Assembly: GCF_004375085.3 (NCBI RefSeq)
Contig: NZ_SNAQ03000006.1
Span: 1-64,000, forward strand
DNA from: Lewinella sp. W8
Lineage (GTDB): Bacteria; Bacteroidota; Bacteroidia; Chitinophagales; Saprospiraceae
Length of the DNA stretch: 64,000 nucleotides
Direction of reading: 5' to 3'
Part shown: positions 43,669 through 50,282 of the stretch, in pieces
Numbering within the stretch: position 1 is the stretch's first letter
How the letters are laid out: each line of letters starts with the position of its first letter
Program-made: the position numbers and the translations under genes
Notes under the pieces: generated by a model
Seen by the model: the letters and a program-made list of their open reading frames with translations, nothing else
Databases searched by the model: none
What the model was told of the DNA's origin: nothing

Positions 43669-44862
43669 CTATATCACCCGGTAGCTGTTGGCCAACCGTT
43701 CCTGAAGTTTGGGTTTCAGCACCGAAGCGGCGTCCAGGATCAGGGCCTCATTACTCGGGAAGGGAATGGGACGGTTCCCGATTCTGCGGCGGGTGTCGCT
43801 GCTGAGGGCCCGGCGATCTCCCCGGAAAGTACTGGCGTAGTTTTCGAAGATGGCTTCCGCGGTAAGCTGGTCTTCGTCGACGATGCGCCGGAGGCGATTA
43901 TCGTACAGTACCAGACTACCCGTCACGATGGCCGTTTTGGTCTGAAGGACTTCAGTCACTTCGGCCCGCACGACAACCTGGCGCGGCCGGGTGATGTCGT
44001 TGCCCAGGGTATCCTTGGCCACGTTGCCGTTTTCATCGAGCACGTATTCTTCGCCGTCGGTGATTTCCTTCTCGTCGATGTAGTTGCGCTCACTGACGCG
44101 TTCGGGGCTCACCTGGATGTCGTGGATGACGATGCGGGCGTTGTAGTCGTAGTCACGGTCGCGACGGGGGGTGAAATCGTACACCCTCCACCGGTCGTTC
44201 ATACCGCTGGTACGTACGCGGAGCAACTCATCTTCAAAACCACGGGGCAGGTAACCGCCGGTTTCGTTGACCATACTGACGATGACGAACACGCGGCCAA
44301 GTTCTTCGGCCTCGGCGGCCAGCGCGTAGGCATCACGGTAGTTGCGGCGGTAACGGTCAATCCGTTCAAACTGCATGACGGCGTCCCGGGCGGCGGCCTT
44401 ATTGCCGTTACGACCTTCGGCCAGCAGGCGCAGGGCATCCTCATAGATTTGAGCCGCAGCGTTTTCGCTGGCCCGCACCATCAGGTCATCGACGTTGGCG
44501 AAGCGAAATTCGGCCTGGCGCCCCCGCTTGTCCACCAGCGGCAGGAGTGGACGCAGGGCGTCCTGACGACGCTGAATGCGCTCATAGATGCCGAACACCT
44601 GGGGCCAGTCGGCGTTTCCACTTTCCGCAATTCTGCGGGCACGGGCCATGTCTTCTGCCGTGACCCGGTTAAAGGCCTGCTCCAGGGCAGCGACTAATTT
44701 TGGGTTTTTCTTTTGCTTTCCGGTAAGGCGACGCTGGGCTACGTCAATGGTCTGTTCGTAGTTACCAGACTCCACCAAATCCTGCACTGAGGTGCAGGAA
44801 GGCAGCGTCAGAAAAACGACGGCCAGAAAGCAGATCAGGGAGGTGATTGGTAACTGTTTCAT
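43669..44862 (-). CDS. Predicted lipoprotein with helical repeats, unknown function
   Basis: This is a 397-residue lipoprotein with lipobox LTLPSC (C23). The first half is helical and TPR-like (DLVESGNYEQTIDVAQRRLT, YEDALRLLAEGRNGNKAAA). The second half is strand-rich (RIVIHDIQVSPERVSERN, VVVRAEVTEVLQTKTAIVTG). No known domain is recognised. A -7 box TACTTTTG lies 17 bases before the start. It is convergent with the DUF1501 gene at a 3-base gap and lies downstream of ilvN on the same strand, with its own promoter. Confidence 0.78.
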   Translation of the reverse strand: MKQLPITSLICFLAVVFLTLPSCTSVQDLVESGNYEQTIDVAQRRLTGKQKKNPKLVAALEQAFNRVTAEDMARARRIAESGNADWPQVFGIYERIQRRQDALRPLLPLVDKRGRQAEFRFANVDDLMVRASENAAAQIYEDALRLLAEGRNGNKAAARDAVMQFERIDRYRRNYRDAYALAAEAEELGRVFVIVSMVNETGGYLPRGFEDELLRVRTSGMNDRWRVYDFTPRRDRDYDYNARIVIHDIQVSPERVSERNYIDEKEITDGEEYVLDENGNVAKDTLGNDITRPRQVVVRAEVTEVLQTKTAIVTGSLVLYDNRLRRIVDEDQLTAEAIFENYASTFRGDRRALSSDTRRRIGNRPIPFPSNEALILDAASVLKPKLQERLANSYRVI

Positions 44863-45001: not shown

Positions 45002-45544
45002 CTACACAGTTTCCTTCGCCGCCAATTCCTGCAGGTAGTTATTGAGGCGTTCCATCGGTTTTACGATGGCGACCCGCCCGGAGCGCACGAACTCGTAAAT
45101 GCCGTAGGTTTTTAGTTCCTGCAGTAAGGCTCCCGTTTCGGATTCGTGTCCCGTTTTCTCAATTACCACGAATTCTTTCTCGATCAACAGCACGCGTGCA
45201 TTGTGCTTCCGGATAATTTGCTCCACGGTACTACCGTTGTTGAAGGCTTCCGTGGGAACCTTGTAAAGCGCAATTTCCTGGAAGACGATATCCTTCTCCT
45301 CGTAATAAAAGGCTTTGAGCACGTCAACCTGCTTATCGAGCTGGGCGATCAGCTTTTCCACCATGTCGTGGCTAACCTGGACCACGATGGTGAAGCGATG
45401 AATGCTTTCATCACTACTGGCGCTGGTGGTGAGGCTGTCGATATTGATATTCCGGCGATTAAAAATCCCCACTACCCGGGAGAGCAGTCCGGTCTGGTCT
45501 TCGGTGAACACCGTGATGGTGTAGGCTTGCGTGGCGGTAGTCAT
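45002..45544 (-). CDS. ilvN: Acetolactate synthase small (regulatory) subunit
   Basis: IlvN binds the catalytic acetolactate synthase and confers feedback inhibition by valine. The 180-residue protein begins with an ACT domain (YTITVFTEDQTGLLSRVVG, FNRRNINIDSLTTSASSD), followed by the C-terminal acetolactate synthase small-subunit domain (about 85-175). The length is usual for the longer type of small subunit. It starts 30 bases after ilvB on the same strand, so it is the last gene of the ilvD-ilvB-ilvN operon. No clear terminator is seen behind it. Confidence 0.93.
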   Translation of the reverse strand: MTTATQAYTITVFTEDQTGLLSRVVGIFNRRNINIDSLTTSASSDESIHRFTIVVQVSHDMVEKLIAQLDKQVDVLKAFYYEEKDIVFQEIALYKVPTEAFNNGSTVEQIIRKHNARVLLIEKEFVVIEKTGHESETGALLQELKTYGIYEFVRSGRVAIVKPMERLNNYLQELAAKETV

Positions 45545-45574: not shown

Positions 45575-47329
45575 TTACAGGTCTTCGGGCGAGAGGATGA
45601 CCTCATGGACGCCCTTTCCGCTGGGTACCATGGGGAATACATTGTCTTCCTTGGCCACGTGCACGTGCAGGAGGTACGGGCCGTCATGGGCCAACATTCT
45701 GGCCACGGCAGGTGCAATATCTTTCGGGTCACGGATGGATTCACCGGCCACCCCGAAGCCCCGGGCGATGGTCACAAAATCAGGATTCTGGAGTTCTACC
45801 GAGCTGTAGCGCCTTTCGTGGAAGAGCTGCTGCCACTGCCGCACCATGCCGAGGAAATTATTATCCAGCAATACGATTTTGACGCCAACGTGCCACTGGG
45901 CGCAGAGGCCGAGTTCCTGAAGGGTCATTTGAAAACCTCCGTCGCCGATGAAGGCGACCGTTTCCCGTGCGGGATCGGCGTACTTGGCACCAAAGGCAGC
46001 TGGGAGTCCGTAGCCCATGGTTCCGGCTCCGCCGGAACTCACCCACTGATCATGACCTTTGTACTCGTAATACCGGGCGGCCATCATCTGGTGCTGCCCC
46101 ACGTCGGTGGCCACGATGGCCTGCCCGTCGGTTTGGTCAGACACCTCCCGGATGACTTGTCCCATCCGGATTTCCCCCTCGGCGGTTGGCAGTAATGCCT
46201 CCCGGATGACCCGGTCTTCTTCGATCCGACGGCACTCCCGGAATCGCTCGGCCCACTCCGGGTGGCGCTTTTCCGTCACCATGGGGAGCAGGGCTTCGAG
46301 GACGTCCCGGGCGTCACCCAGCACCGGTGCCTCCGCCTTCACGTTTTTATTGATTTCTGCCGGGTCGATCTCGATGTGGACCACCTTACTGTCGGGGAGG
46401 TATTTGGACAGGTTACCCGTTACGCGATCGTCGAAGCGCATCCCAATGGCGATGATGACGTCCGCTTCGTTTTGCAGGAGGTTCGGCCCGTAGTTACCGT
46501 GCATCCCGAGCATACCGGTGAAGAGCGGATGGTCGTTGGGCAGGGCCGAAAGCCCGTGGCAGGTGGCTCCGACGGGGATACCGGTTTTGTCCACGAACTG
46601 CCGAAAGACCTCCTGGGCGTGGGCGATGTGGATACCGTGTCCGGCGAGGATCATCGGGCGCTCGGCGCCGTTGATGAGGTTCGCCGCGGCCGTCAGTTGG
46701 GCCTTCTTGGGCTTATTGTAGGGAGAATAGCTCCGAATCTTCAGCTTCTCCGGGTACCGGAAATCGACTTCCGCCAGCTGAGCGTCTTTGGTGATGTCGA
46801 TAACGACCGGTCCGGGCCGACCGCTGTTGGCGATAAAAAAGGCCTTCTTGAAAACCCAGGCGATTTCTTCCGGATCGGTGATCTGGTAGTTCCATTTGGT
46901 CACCGGAATAGTACAGTTCACCACGTCCGTTTCCTGAAAAGCATCACTGCCCAGCAGGAAGCTGGGCACCTGCCCGGTGATGGCCACCAGGGGAAGGGAA
47001 TCCAGTTGGGCGTCGCACAGTCCGGTGAGGAGGTTCGTGGCTCCGGGTCCACTGGTAGCCATGCAGACCCCGGTTTTACGCCTGATTCTGGCGTAGCCCT
47101 CGGCGGCGTGAATGGCCCCCTGTTCGTGACGCGGGAGGATGTGGGTAATCTTGTCTTCCACGTCCACCAGTGCGTCATAGACGGGCATAATGGCACCTCC
47201 GGGGTAGCCGAAAATAGTATCGACGCCCTCGGCGATGAGGCATTCCAGTACGGCGCGTGCTCCGTTCATTCTTACCGTTTTGGGAGCCTGACCATTGATG
47301 GTGGCGGAAGTGGTAGTATTGGTGGCCAT
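45575..47329 (-). CDS. ilvB: Acetolactate synthase large (catalytic) subunit
   Basis: IlvB uses thiamine diphosphate to join two pyruvates to acetolactate, or pyruvate with 2-oxobutyrate, in valine, leucine and isoleucine synthesis. The 584-residue protein shows the activating Glu E69 in [17 protein letters not shown]. It has the central FAD/Rossmann domain and the ThDP motif [15 protein letters not shown] near residue 460, ending in NN for metal binding. The N-terminus (first ~18 residues) is a short Thr/Asn-rich extension. The gene lies between ilvD and ilvN. The 107-bp gap to ilvD holds a degenerate dispersed-repeat copy. Confidence 0.95.
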
Positions 47330-47436: not shown

Positions 47437-49119
47437 CTACAAATCGGTCACACAGCCCAGGGAAGCGCTGCTTACCGATTTTGCGTATTTCTTCAAAATG
47501 CCAAAACTGGCGTTGAGCGGTGGCGCTTCCCAGCGGGCCCGCCGCTCGGCAATGGTCGCCTCATCGAGTTCGGCCTCCAGCACGTTGGCCTCCGCATCGA
47601 TCCGGATGATGTCTCCGTCTTCGAGCAGGGCCAGCAGTCCACCGACCTGGGCCTCCGGACTGATGTGTCCCACCACAAAACCGTGGGTGCCGCCGCTGAA
47701 GCGACCGTCGGTGATCAGGGCGACTTTCTTGCCCAATCCCTGCCCCATGATCTCGCTGGTGGGCTTGAGCATTTCGGGCATGCCGGGTCCACCCTTCGGA
47801 CCACAATAACGAATGACGATTACCTCGCCCTCCTTAATGGTTTTTGCACCAATAGCGGCGTTGGCCTCCACCTCTGAGTTGAACACCCGCGCCGGCCCCA
47901 TGAACTGGGTACCCTCCTTTCCGGTGATCTTCGCCACCGACCCTTCCGGGGACAGATTGCCGTAAAGAATCCGCAGGTGACCGGTTGGCTTTATGGGCTG
48001 ATCAAAGGGCTTGATGATGTCCTGCTCCTCCCGCAGGGGAGGCACTTCGGCCAGGTTCTCGGCCAGTGTTTTACCGGTGACCGTCATGCAGTCTCCGTGG
48101 AGGTAACCGTTGTCCAGCAGCAACTTCATCACGCCGGGGACACCCCCCGCGTAGTAGAGATCTTCCATGACGTACTTACCACTCGGTTTGAGGTCCGCGA
48201 TGAAGGGTACGCGGTCACTGATGCGCTGGAAGTCATCGATGGTGATGTCCAGTCCGGCGGCGTGACTCATCGCCAGCAGGTGGAGCACGGCGTTGGTGCT
48301 GCCCCCCAGGGCGATGAGGGTGACCATGGCGTTCTCGAAGGATTTCCGGGTGAGGATATCCAGCGGCTTCAGGTCCTTAACCAGCAGGTTTTTCATGTAT
48401 TCCCCCACCCGCTTAACGTCAGCCTGTTTGTCCGGATGGTTCGCGGGGATGGAACTGTTGTAGGGCAGGGCCATGCCCATTGCTTCGATGGCCGTGGCCA
48501 TGGTGTTCGCCGTATACATACCTCCGCAGGCGCCCGAGCCCGGGCAGGCGTGGCGAATCACGCCACGGTAGGTTTTTTCATCCACCTGCCCCGTGCGGTA
48601 CTTCCCAAGCACCTCAAAGGCGGAAACGATGTCCAGCTTCTGGTCTTCGTAGCAGCCGGGGCTGATCGTGCCCCCAAAGAGCAACAGCGAGGGCCGGTTC
48701 AGGCGCGCCAGGGCAATCATGGCTCCGGGCATATTTTTATCGCAACCCACTACGGTTACCAGTCCGTCGTACCACTGGGCTCCGGCCACCGTCTCGATGC
48801 TGTCGGCAATCACGTCGCGGCTGGGTAGGGAATACCGCATCCCGGCCGTCCCCATGCTGATGCCGTCGCTCACGCCAATGGTGTGGTAGATCAGGCCGAG
48901 GATGTCGTCCTGTTCGTTGATGCCGGCCTTGACCCCTTCGGCCAACCCGTTCAGGTGCATATTACAGGGATTGCCTTCCCAGCCCGTGGAGACCACCCCG
49001 ATCTGGGCCTTCTCCATATCCTCATCGCTCAACCCGGTGGCGTACAACATCGCCCGGGCGGCGGGTTGCTCGGGGTTGCTCGTTACGTTTTTACTGTATT
49101 TATTCAGGGGATTCGACAT
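47437..49119 (-). CDS. ilvD: Dihydroxy-acid dehydratase
   Basis: IlvD dehydrates 2,3-dihydroxy-isovalerate and -methylvalerate to the 2-oxo acids of valine and isoleucine, with an iron-sulfur cluster. The 560-residue protein has the three cluster cysteines C52 (GNPCNMHLN), C126 (GCDKNMPG) and C198 ([15 protein letters not shown]). K128 is the expected carbamylated metal ligand. The C-terminus has [19 protein letters not shown]. It is the first enzyme gene of the operon. A leader peptide and terminator just upstream suggest attenuation control. Confidence 0.95.
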
Positions 49120-49154: not shown

Positions 49155-49190
49155 AAAAAAGCCGCTTTCCGGGCTGGAAAGCGGCTTTTT
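49155..49190 (-). terminator. Attenuator terminator hairpin upstream of ilvD
   Basis: On the minus strand a 15-bp perfect stem (AAAAAGCCGCTTTCC paired with GGAAAGCGGCTTTTT) with a 5-base loop ends in a run of six Ts (49160-49155). It is 35 bases before the ilvD ATG and 15 bases after the leader ORF stop. If it forms, it should stop transcription before ilvD. Confidence 0.85.
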
Positions 49191-49219
49191 CGAGTTGATG
49201 GCAAATTATGCAGCTTTCC
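49176..49219 (-). promoter_or_regulatory. Candidate antiterminator pairing for the ilv attenuator
   Basis: GGAAAGCTGC (49219-49210), which is part of leader codons 26-29, can pair with GCCGCTTTCC (49185-49176), the 5' arm of the terminator, with one mismatch in ten. The two pairings exclude each other. A ribosome at the leader stop would cover the upstream strand and let the terminator form, while one stalled on the Leu/Val/Ile codons would leave it free. A direct repeat CCATCAACTC (at 49231-49222 and 49201-49192) flanks this part. Confidence 0.6.
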
Positions 49220-49295
49220 GTGAGTTGATGGGCTCACCCACCACCAGCACAATAAGCACCACAATTACCAGTAACTGAGACATAGGATGTACCAT
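49206..49295 (-). CDS. Branched-chain amino acid leader peptide of the ilv operon
   Basis: This is a 29-codon ORF (ATG at 49295, TAA at 49208-49206). Codons 8-19 read [12 protein letters not shown], that is 12 consecutive branched-chain residues (4 Leu, 6 Val, 2 Ile), followed by [11 protein letters not shown] second in-frame ATG at 49283 would give 25 codons. A terminator hairpin follows 15 bases after the stop and ilvD 86 bases after it. This is the form of the leader peptides that govern ilv operons by ribosome stalling in enterobacteria. The alternative reading as a tiny membrane peptide is possible but does not explain the placement. Confidence 0.75.
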
Positions 49296-49303
49296 TAACT
49301 TCA

Positions 49304-49311
49304 CTAATGTA
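49304..49311 (-). promoter_or_regulatory. Candidate -7 box for the ilv leader transcript
   Basis: TACATTAG on the minus strand fits TAnnTTTG at six of eight, with a TTTT 20 bases upstream. It lies 8 bases before the leader ATG and would make a very short 5' leader. Confidence 0.3.
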
Positions 49312-49368
49312 CCCAGCTCATGGCTACTGATAAAAGCCCACTTCAGGGGCATTTACGACGGCAAAACC

Positions 49369-50013
49369 TCAATAACGTCGCTTGTCCAGACGGAAAGTAG
49401 CCTGTAAGCCAAGTTGATACGCCAGGGATTTGGGACTCCCATCAACGGGTTCCCCGTTTACGTCGGTAAACCGAAAATCCACGAATGGCCCCGTGCCGTA
49501 CCTGGCGGAAACCAGGGGCGTAAGGGTGAGCAGGTTGCTGATACCAAAATCAATGCCCACGCCACCACCGAAGGTAAAGGCACTCGTATTTTCCACGTTC
49601 AGCCCATTATCCCATCGGTAAAATGCGTAACCCGGACTCAGCTGCACAAAGAAACCCTTCTGCAACTGGGGTCCCTGTTTACCGAAGGTCGGGCAATCAC
49701 AGTCGGTTCCGAAATCGAAGAGGTAAATATTGGTTTTGAACTGGAAACCATACTCACCGTACCGGCCGTCGGCAAGGGCGGTATTGGCGGCGGCGTAATA
49801 AAGGGTTGGTTGAAATTCTACCCGTTTCTGGGGAAGGCGAAACCAGTAGTGGGCCGCGAACTCAATGCCATTATCCAGGAGCTCAGCATCCGTCAACTGA
49901 TCTGCCGGTCCGGACCAGACGGTCTGATTCAAATTATAAAAGGAAGACACCCCAAACTGGGCCTTAGCGAAAAGTCCCGTACACAGCAGCAGGACGAGTA
50001 ATGGGAAGCGCAT
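49369..50013 (-). CDS. Predicted outer-membrane beta-barrel protein
   Basis: This is a 214-residue exported protein. The start at 50013 leads straight into a signal peptide (RFPLLVLLLCTGLFAKAQ). The mature part alternates polar and aromatic residues as in outer-membrane barrels (GIEFAAHYWFRLPQKRVEF, GYEFQFK-like GEYGFQFKTNIYLFDFG, SPGYAFYRWDNGLNVEN) and ends LGLQATFRLDKRRY. It contains a CDC pair. No specific transport role can be assigned. It lies upstream of the ilv leader on the same strand, with 73 bases between. Confidence 0.72.
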   Translation of the reverse strand: MRFPLLVLLLCTGLFAKAQFGVSSFYNLNQTVWSGPADQLTDAELLDNGIEFAAHYWFRLPQKRVEFQPTLYYAAANTALADGRYGEYGFQFKTNIYLFDFGTDCDCPTFGKQGPQLQKGFFVQLSPGYAFYRWDNGLNVENTSAFTFGGGVGIDFGISNLLTLTPLVSARYGTGPFVDFRFTDVNGEPVDGSPKSLAYQLGLQATFRLDKRRY

Positions 50014-50282
50014 AAAGATCATTTTAAGGGTCAACGGAAGCCCGCAAAGAGAATTGCCCGGCAAGGATTTTTTTGACCGTTGTCTGCGGTACTTTCGGTG
50101 GGTCGTTTTACGGCACGCTCCCCAGAATACACCACGAATACCACCAGCGTTCACTTCGAAATTGATTGGGCATAATGGATTCTCCGTGGCGGAAAACCCC
50201 AAAAAGCAAAACATAGCCGACGACGACTGGTTAAAGACACGTTAAGTCCGCCCCGAAGAGGTACTGATTTCGGAGGGGTTCC

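Follow-up and report, generated by a model that had tools for sequence, protein, structure and literature searches.

Ribosome-mediated attenuation as the predicted control of the ilvDBN operon in Lewinella sp. W8, with comparable leader units before ilvD in other Bacteroidota

What controls the ilv genes of Lewinella sp. W8 is a question raised by the short stretch in front of ilvD, where a small reading frame with 12 consecutive codons for Leu, Val and Ile is followed by a terminator. We analyzed this stretch within a window of 64,000 nucleotides (contig NZ_SNAQ03000006.1, positions 1 to 64,000) and compared it with the regions upstream of ilvD in other genomes. The outcome is an in silico prediction, made with high confidence, that ilvDBN is governed by ribosome-mediated transcription attenuation of the classic trp/ilv type. 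The features concerned are listed below.

45002-45544, minus strand: ilvN/ilvH, acetolactate synthase small subunit (TIGR00119, 115 bits with a cut-off of 57; ALS_ss_C and ACT domains)
45575-47329, minus strand: ilvB, acetolactate synthase large subunit (TIGR00118, 708 bits with a cut-off of 538)
47437-49119, minus strand: ilvD, dihydroxy-acid dehydratase (TIGR00110, 721 bits with a cut-off of 618)
49155-49190, minus strand: intrinsic terminator (5' arm 49190-49176, loop 49175-49171, 3' arm 49170-49156, T-run to 49155)
49206-49283, minus strand: leader peptide ORF of 25 aa, with in-frame alternative starts at 49295 and 49352 (start placed by alignment of relatives)
49210-49220, minus strand: antiterminator 5' strand CGGAAAGCTGC in the last leader codons (Arg-Lys-Ala-Ala), pairing with the terminator 5' arm; counterpart in 10 of 10 clade members
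49239-49274, minus strand: 12 consecutive regulatory codons, read codon by codon (6 Val, 4 Leu, 2 Ile)
49304-49311, minus strand: promoter-like TACATTAG
49353-49365, minus strand: conserved element TTTGCCRTCGTAA, upstream of the promoter-like site

Family profile matches above cut-off bear out the gene order ilvD-ilvB-ilvN behind the leader that was given in a preliminary description of the locus. The genes flanking the ilv genes (43669-44862, 397 aa, and 49369-50214, 281 aa) match no family of Pfam or NCBIfam at an E of 0.001.

The same description proposed a 29-residue ORF with 12 straight Leu/Val/Ile codons at codons 8 to 19, and a codon-by-codon reading confirms it on the minus strand, from the ATG at 49295 to the stop at 49206-49208. 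The frame is already open from an ATG at 49352, which gives a version of 48 aa. The start that the relatives support better is a third one, the ATG at 49283, and the leader would then measure 25 aa; in L003 the equivalent ATG is the first start codon of the leader frame. Codon numbers below refer to this start. The leader contains the sole run of at least 9 Leu, Ile or Val in a six-frame translation of the window, and 100 dinucleotide shuffles of the window yield no run of 10 or more. We also applied a loose detector (ORF below 90 aa, at least 7 Leu/Ile/Val per 10 codons, terminator of -8 kcal/mol or lower within 70 nt past the stop) to both strands of the window. It marks five places, and a density of 9 or 10 in 10 is reached only at the ilvD leader. 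Folding of the 151-nt leader gives z = -5.3, with an equally stable structure in none of 200 shuffles. The 12 consecutive codons before ilvDBN are codons for the amino acids that the operon produces.

Between this leader and the first gene lies an intrinsic terminator, which is kept in all ten clade members aligned. Its letters from 49190 to 49155 read AAAAAGCCGCTTTCC-AGCCC-GGAAAGCGGCTTTTTT, and ilvD starts 35 nt further on. The stem has 15 pairs, as the preliminary description had it; five are A-U pairs that use the T-run. The 10-bp core alone has a stability of -17.9 kcal/mol and the 15-bp form one of -23.1 kcal/mol. A simple terminator scan of the window did not list this structure.

The end of the leader supplies an element that was absent from the preliminary account and that completes the attenuation mechanism. 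Codons CGG AAA GCT GC match the terminator 3' arm GGAAAGCGGC but for one base, so that the leader end, as a near copy of this arm, can pair with the 5' arm. The resulting antiterminator has 9 pairs (duplex -14.8 kcal/mol, hairpin -10.5 kcal/mol) and is weaker than the terminator at -23.1 kcal/mol. Where the terminator has G at the mismatched position, all ten aligned clade members carry T, C or A in the leader copy; this difference should leave the antiterminator as the weaker of the two structures. Both structures are mutually exclusive, although in an unconstrained duplex scan of the window the best partner of the terminator arm is another leader segment (-15.5, p = 0.060), slightly above CGGAAAGCTGC (-14.8).

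Which structure forms in the computation depends on the position of the ribosome. With the RNA ended before the terminator 3' arm, footprint folding forms the 9 antiterminator pairs as long as the A-site is on codons 5 to 16, and loses all of them from codon 17 onwards. Over five footprint sizes the paired block begins at codon 4 to 7 and ends at codon 16 to 17. Since codons 5 to 15 comprise 6 Val, 3 Leu and 2 Ile, shortage of any one of the three could set the switch. In equilibrium folding of the complete leader the terminator forms at every ribosome position tried and no switch appears, so the switch must be kinetic. Such a kinetic decision is usual for attenuators. As a control we folded the E. 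coli ilvL leader in the same way, with a mixed result: pairing occurs while the ribosome is on early Leu/Val codons, is missing on several codons in the middle and returns at the stop. Footprint folding is therefore supporting rather than decisive evidence.

Taken together, these elements suggest the following course of events. RNA polymerase would start just 5' of the leader ORF, and a ribosome behind it would translate the 25 codons. If charged Leu, Val or Ile tRNA is short, the ribosome would stall on codons 4 to 15 and leave CGGAAAGCTGC (codons 22 to 25) free to pair with the incoming 5' arm of the terminator. The terminator would then not be ready as the polymerase passes, and ilvDBN would be transcribed. 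With all three amino acids plentiful the ribosome would reach the stop and cover CGGAAAGCTGC, the terminator would form, and transcription would end 35 nt before ilvD. The promoter, translation of the leader, coupling between ribosome and polymerase and the response to starvation are what we infer here.

A candidate for the promoter is TACATTAG. The -7 consensus of Bacteroidota promoters is TAnnTTTG, which this site resembles; TAC-N-TT is present in nine of the ten genomes and TATCTT in L008. The TTTG-like -33 site upstream of it is degenerate in the window. An E. coli-type sigma-70 scan found no promoter site for the leader. Further upstream, the element TTTGCCRTCGTAA is near-invariant in the alignment of ten genomes (L002 has TTTGGCATCGTAA); the window letters at 49365-49353 are TTTGCCGTCGTAA. 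The whole genome holds two exact copies of TTTGCCRTCGTAA. The second copy (L269:1501-1513) lies upstream of a small gene that, judged by eye, resembles a cytochrome, and consequently no link of this element to BCAA was found.

The preliminary description had suggested a search before ilvD in relatives for a conserved Leu/Val/Ile-rich ORF with a downstream hairpin. Both are found, and the antiterminator strand with them, in all ten clade members first examined. Over these ten species 130 of the 145 core residues are Leu, Ile or Val, which swap freely among themselves, and 7 of 145 are A, F, M, G, W, C or Y. An eleventh genome (G018), checked last, has the leader MNGIVLLVVLLVLVVVLSTPDRKAA, which ends in the same RKAA, and the terminator arm GCCGCTTTCC. 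Here ilvD is split over two contigs (pieces 85-86% identical). Its loci L023 and L034 were excluded from all counts, as the contig begins inside the gene; if this genome is included, the leader occurs in 11 of 21 members of the genus.

On a wider scale, an IlvD search gave a match in 35 of 60 relatives and in 91 of 296 genomes of the class, some of them only to distant dehydratases; among the named genomes the best 80 loci were kept. We examined 137 upstream regions and then 45 more. Leader plus terminator is detected in 40 of the 137 regions against 8 of 1096 shuffled ones (2 of 270 in a second shuffle set), and with at least 9 Leu/Ile/Val the figures are 20 of 137 against 0 of 1096. The 137 regions are partly non-independent: L031 (Neolewinella litorea) and L019 apparently represent the same contig, and some genomes give two loci. 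Species may also occur in both collections, and some metagenome bins (Planctomycetes, Thalassovita and others) may bear wrong titles. Broken down, the detector is positive at 10 of 20 loci of the genus (including all ten of the window's clade), 7 of 14 of other relatives, 22 of 79 named loci (from the best 80) and 11 of 69 class-survey loci; these counts keep the doubtful calls L062, L063, L108 and L213. Comparable leader units therefore precede ilvD in other Saprospiria, in Flavobacteriia and in further groups. Leaders outside the genus are rich in Ile and Val, with Asn and Ser, and keep little sequence rather than a fixed peptide. Meridianimaribacter flavus (L052), with a frame that ends in MNRQIINIISIIIVVIISHR, and L118, with MKILQSILSIIINVVSIILRN, are examples.

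Within the genus no leader was found in 10 of the 20 members first examined (L011-L019 and L030). Neolewinella litorea falls in this leaderless part; NCBI taxonomy places Neolewinella within Saprospiria. Four of the leaderless loci (L012, L013, L016 and L019) show a terminator-like hairpin at most 50 nt from ilvD, close behind a promoter-like motif; it could represent a relic, or else a hairpin of the 5' mRNA. The six others have no terminator-like hairpin within 60 nt of ilvD. The ten genus members with the leader group in one clade (100/99) in an IlvD tree built from 29 rows. The leader label requires five changes on this tree, four of which are forced by well-supported branches, so the leader was gained or lost repeatedly.

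We scanned 47 leader-terminator pairs for the best partner of the terminator arm; in 31 of them this partner pairs better than shuffled spacers do (p <= 0.05), and in 16 it does not. Six were dropped by eye (L062, L063, L108 and one extra ORF each in L039, L093 and L094), leaving 41. In these 41 systems pairing with the own arm amounts to -11.98 kcal/mol, compared to -8.29 for permuted arms (sd 0.41, lowest -9.84 in 10,000 permutations). When the genus is left out (31 systems), the values are -10.41 and -7.20. Terminator arm and antiterminator strand thus co-vary across lineages, and in the majority of systems the strand is found close to the stop codon of the leader. When the ribosome occupies BCAA codons the 5' arm makes 7.40 upstream pairs, and 0.66 when the ribosome has reached the stop. 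The mean contrast is 6.74, compared to 0.93 in shuffles, and reaches at least 4 pairs in 34 of 41 systems against 16% of 820 shuffles. It stays below 4 pairs in seven of the 41, among which are L007 (from the window's clade), L094, L120 and one of the two L077 units.

Similar arrangements occur before other amino acid operons. hisG is present in 14 of 20 genomes searched, and at 11 of these 14 loci a leader with a His run is followed by a terminator. In Lewinella sp. W8 itself the leader MTNFLHHHHAAMSCPVGER (HHHH) precedes hisG directly after a tRNA gene (L152, G000:C19), with a terminator behind it. The leader MQTMTNKNWWWLQRTFRVT (WWW) precedes trpE in the same genome (L227, G000:C33), again with a terminator following. 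We examined nine trpE-like loci of the genus, full-length matches that are all below the family cut-off. All nine have a WWW or WW leader, six with a terminator by the detector and three by pattern (leader only). Five his and six trp leaders were folded. For the own trpE leader, 9 antiterminator pairs are present with the A-site anywhere between the start and the end of the Trp codons, and none near the stop. The switch does not always line up with the regulatory codons: at the own hisG (L152) the first three His codons give no pairing and the fourth does, at L142 pairing sets in only beyond the His run, at L231 only at the third Trp, and at L153, L229 and L232 some antiterminator pairing persists at the stop. 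Upstream of leuA-like genes (14 loci, none of which reaches the family cut-off), of long aspartokinase genes taken as thrA (10 loci) and of shorter ones taken as lysC (6 fetched loci) nothing convincing was found. The detector matches at these leuA-, thrA- and lysC-like loci were rejected, as they appear to be frames antisense to or inside genes.

Several other explanations of the locus were considered. A riboswitch or T-box was rejected, given that no Rfam model reaches its gathering cut-off in the window. Rfam leader families match the leader stretch only below threshold (Trp_leader 17.1 of 41 bits, Leu_leader 13.9 of 50 bits). Across 11 related loci the matches that reach the cut-off are limited to four tRNAs and one SAM-II. 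The hairpin might instead terminate the upstream gene at 49369-50214, with the Leu/Val/Ile ORF as a chance frame. That gene, a 281-codon ORF without family match, indeed has its end at 49369 and shares the strand of the leader, and the stretch between the two yielded no sigma-70-type promoter. Yet a run of 12 stands against none of 10 or more in 100 shuffles, the ORF is kept in 10 of 10 aligned clade members, leader plus terminator recurs ahead of ilvD in 40 of 137 regions but in only 8 of 1096 shuffles, and in most systems an antiterminator strand near the leader stop co-varies with the arm. We consider this reading barely credible.

Two further readings leave the ORF a genuine gene. It could encode a functional small membrane protein, a single hydrophobic helix placed before ilvD by coincidence, as a run of 12 Leu/Val/Ile residues could span the membrane as a helix. 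In our judgement, however, the make-up of this core, where 130 of 145 residues are Leu, Ile or Val and 7 of 145 A/F/M/G/W/C/Y, is unlike that of ordinary membrane helices. The C-terminal Arg-Lys-Ala-Ala is moreover explained by RNA pairing, and distant leaders keep the richness in Ile and Val but little sequence, which makes this explanation hardly believable. Alternatively, the leader could exert control through arrest by its hydrophobic nascent peptide, or through general slowing of translation, rather than through shortage of charged Leu, Val or Ile tRNA. Hydrophobic nascent chains can in principle slow ribosomes, and the folding test tells where the ribosome must pause, not why. Against this, the identity of the leader codons fits the operon's products, the his and trp operons of the same genome carry His and Trp runs instead, and the leaders found beyond the genus combine richness in Ile/Val with Asn/Ser and form no fixed peptide. 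Control of this kind is in our view very improbable. Attenuation through stalling on BCAA codons is consequently the preferred reading.

Some relatives of Lewinella sp. W8 appear to go one step further. Whereas the window's ilvD has one attenuator unit, two leader-terminator units in tandem are apparent in L092 (Aquimarina), L093 (Gaetbulibacter), L024 and L027 (two relatives of the window's family) and L077 (an Ignavibacteriae MAG); L039 (Lutibacter) has two leaders, the first terminator being less clear. These six loci were chosen by eye from 12 with two units at a laxer threshold. For the two units, the antiterminator p-values are <=0.01 each in L093, 0.037 and 0.007 in L024, 0.083 and 0.010 in L092, and 0.754 and 0.003 in L077. 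At L024 and L093, at least, neither unit seems to lack a part. A SAM-II riboswitch (RF01726, 64 bits) is also seen at L093:1333-1392 (minus), on the opposite strand and about 600-670 nt upstream of the Gaetbulibacter ilvD. Overall, we think it probable, though well short of certain, that ribosome-mediated attenuation is a widespread and repeatedly gained or lost control of ilv, his and trp across Bacteroidota, with several lineages (Aquimarina, Gaetbulibacter, Lutibacter, Saprospirales and an Ignavibacteriae MAG) wiring two BCAA attenuators in series before ilvD.

A close classic counterpart is the E. coli ilvXGMEDA leader ilvL (MG1655 b3766), which likewise has a short Leu/Val/Ile-rich peptide (MTALLRVISLVVISVVVIIIPPCGAALGRGKA), a terminator just 3' and BCAA biosynthesis genes behind it. 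It differs in its 32-aa leader with interspersed BCAA, compared to 12 in one run in the window, where moreover the antiterminator strand sits inside the last leader codons. No sequence relation between the two is evident by eye.

The preliminary description regarded the locus as a possible new instance of attenuation in Bacteroidota. This stands insofar as no paper on an ilv attenuator in the phylum was found in searches of open-licence papers, and the same holds for tandem leader-peptide attenuators with the same signal. A survey of attenuation in bacteria, to judge by its title (Lopatovskaya, 2010), may list Bacteroidota cases already. Earlier hints exist in the phylum. For Flavobacterium psychrophilum, passages of a 2021 paper based on a transcriptome map (PMC9723704) describe strong clues that leader peptides attenuate amino acid operons, and propose the same mechanism. 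These passages name no operon, and 'ilv' is absent from the main text. Bacteroides thetaiotaomicron has sORFs called 'reminiscent of leader peptides' in a passage of PMC7366714. Leader-peptide attenuation in Bacteroidota has thus been reported, in outline as far as we found. An account from 2010 states that, to its authors' knowledge, leader peptide systems had then been shown only in Proteobacteria and Actinobacteria, to which it adds Firmicutes (PMC2965389, in the part concerned). According to passages of PMC10272879, BCAA-rich leaders control ilv operons in E. coli and Corynebacterium. The ilvB-II motif (the Corynebacterium ilvBNC uORF), ilvB-OMG and Leptospira ilvB motifs treated there resemble our case in having a BCAA-rich uORF before ilv genes and a proposed attenuation, but belong to other lineages as far as these are named there; ilvB-OMG uORFs are said to occur in 'various bacterial phyla'. 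Two ORF-driven attenuators in one leader are known from Salmonella mgtCBR. These sense two different signals (PMC3641672), whereas the double ilv units of the relatives (not of the window) would sense the same amino acids.

The ilvDBN case gives a complete and testable anatomy of leader, antiterminator and terminator for a BCAA operon in Bacteroidota. Its value lies in this full anatomy, in the set of three operons (ilv, his and trp) in one genome and in the series units of relatives. It also offers ready-made reporters for BCAA starvation. Because an attenuator of this type works only if the ribosome closely follows RNA polymerase, its conservation in the clade predicts coupling of transcription and translation there. 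If attenuation is indeed that widespread, such coupling would be required in Bacteroidota, and BCAA attenuators in series, if true, would be expected to give a steeper and less leaky response.
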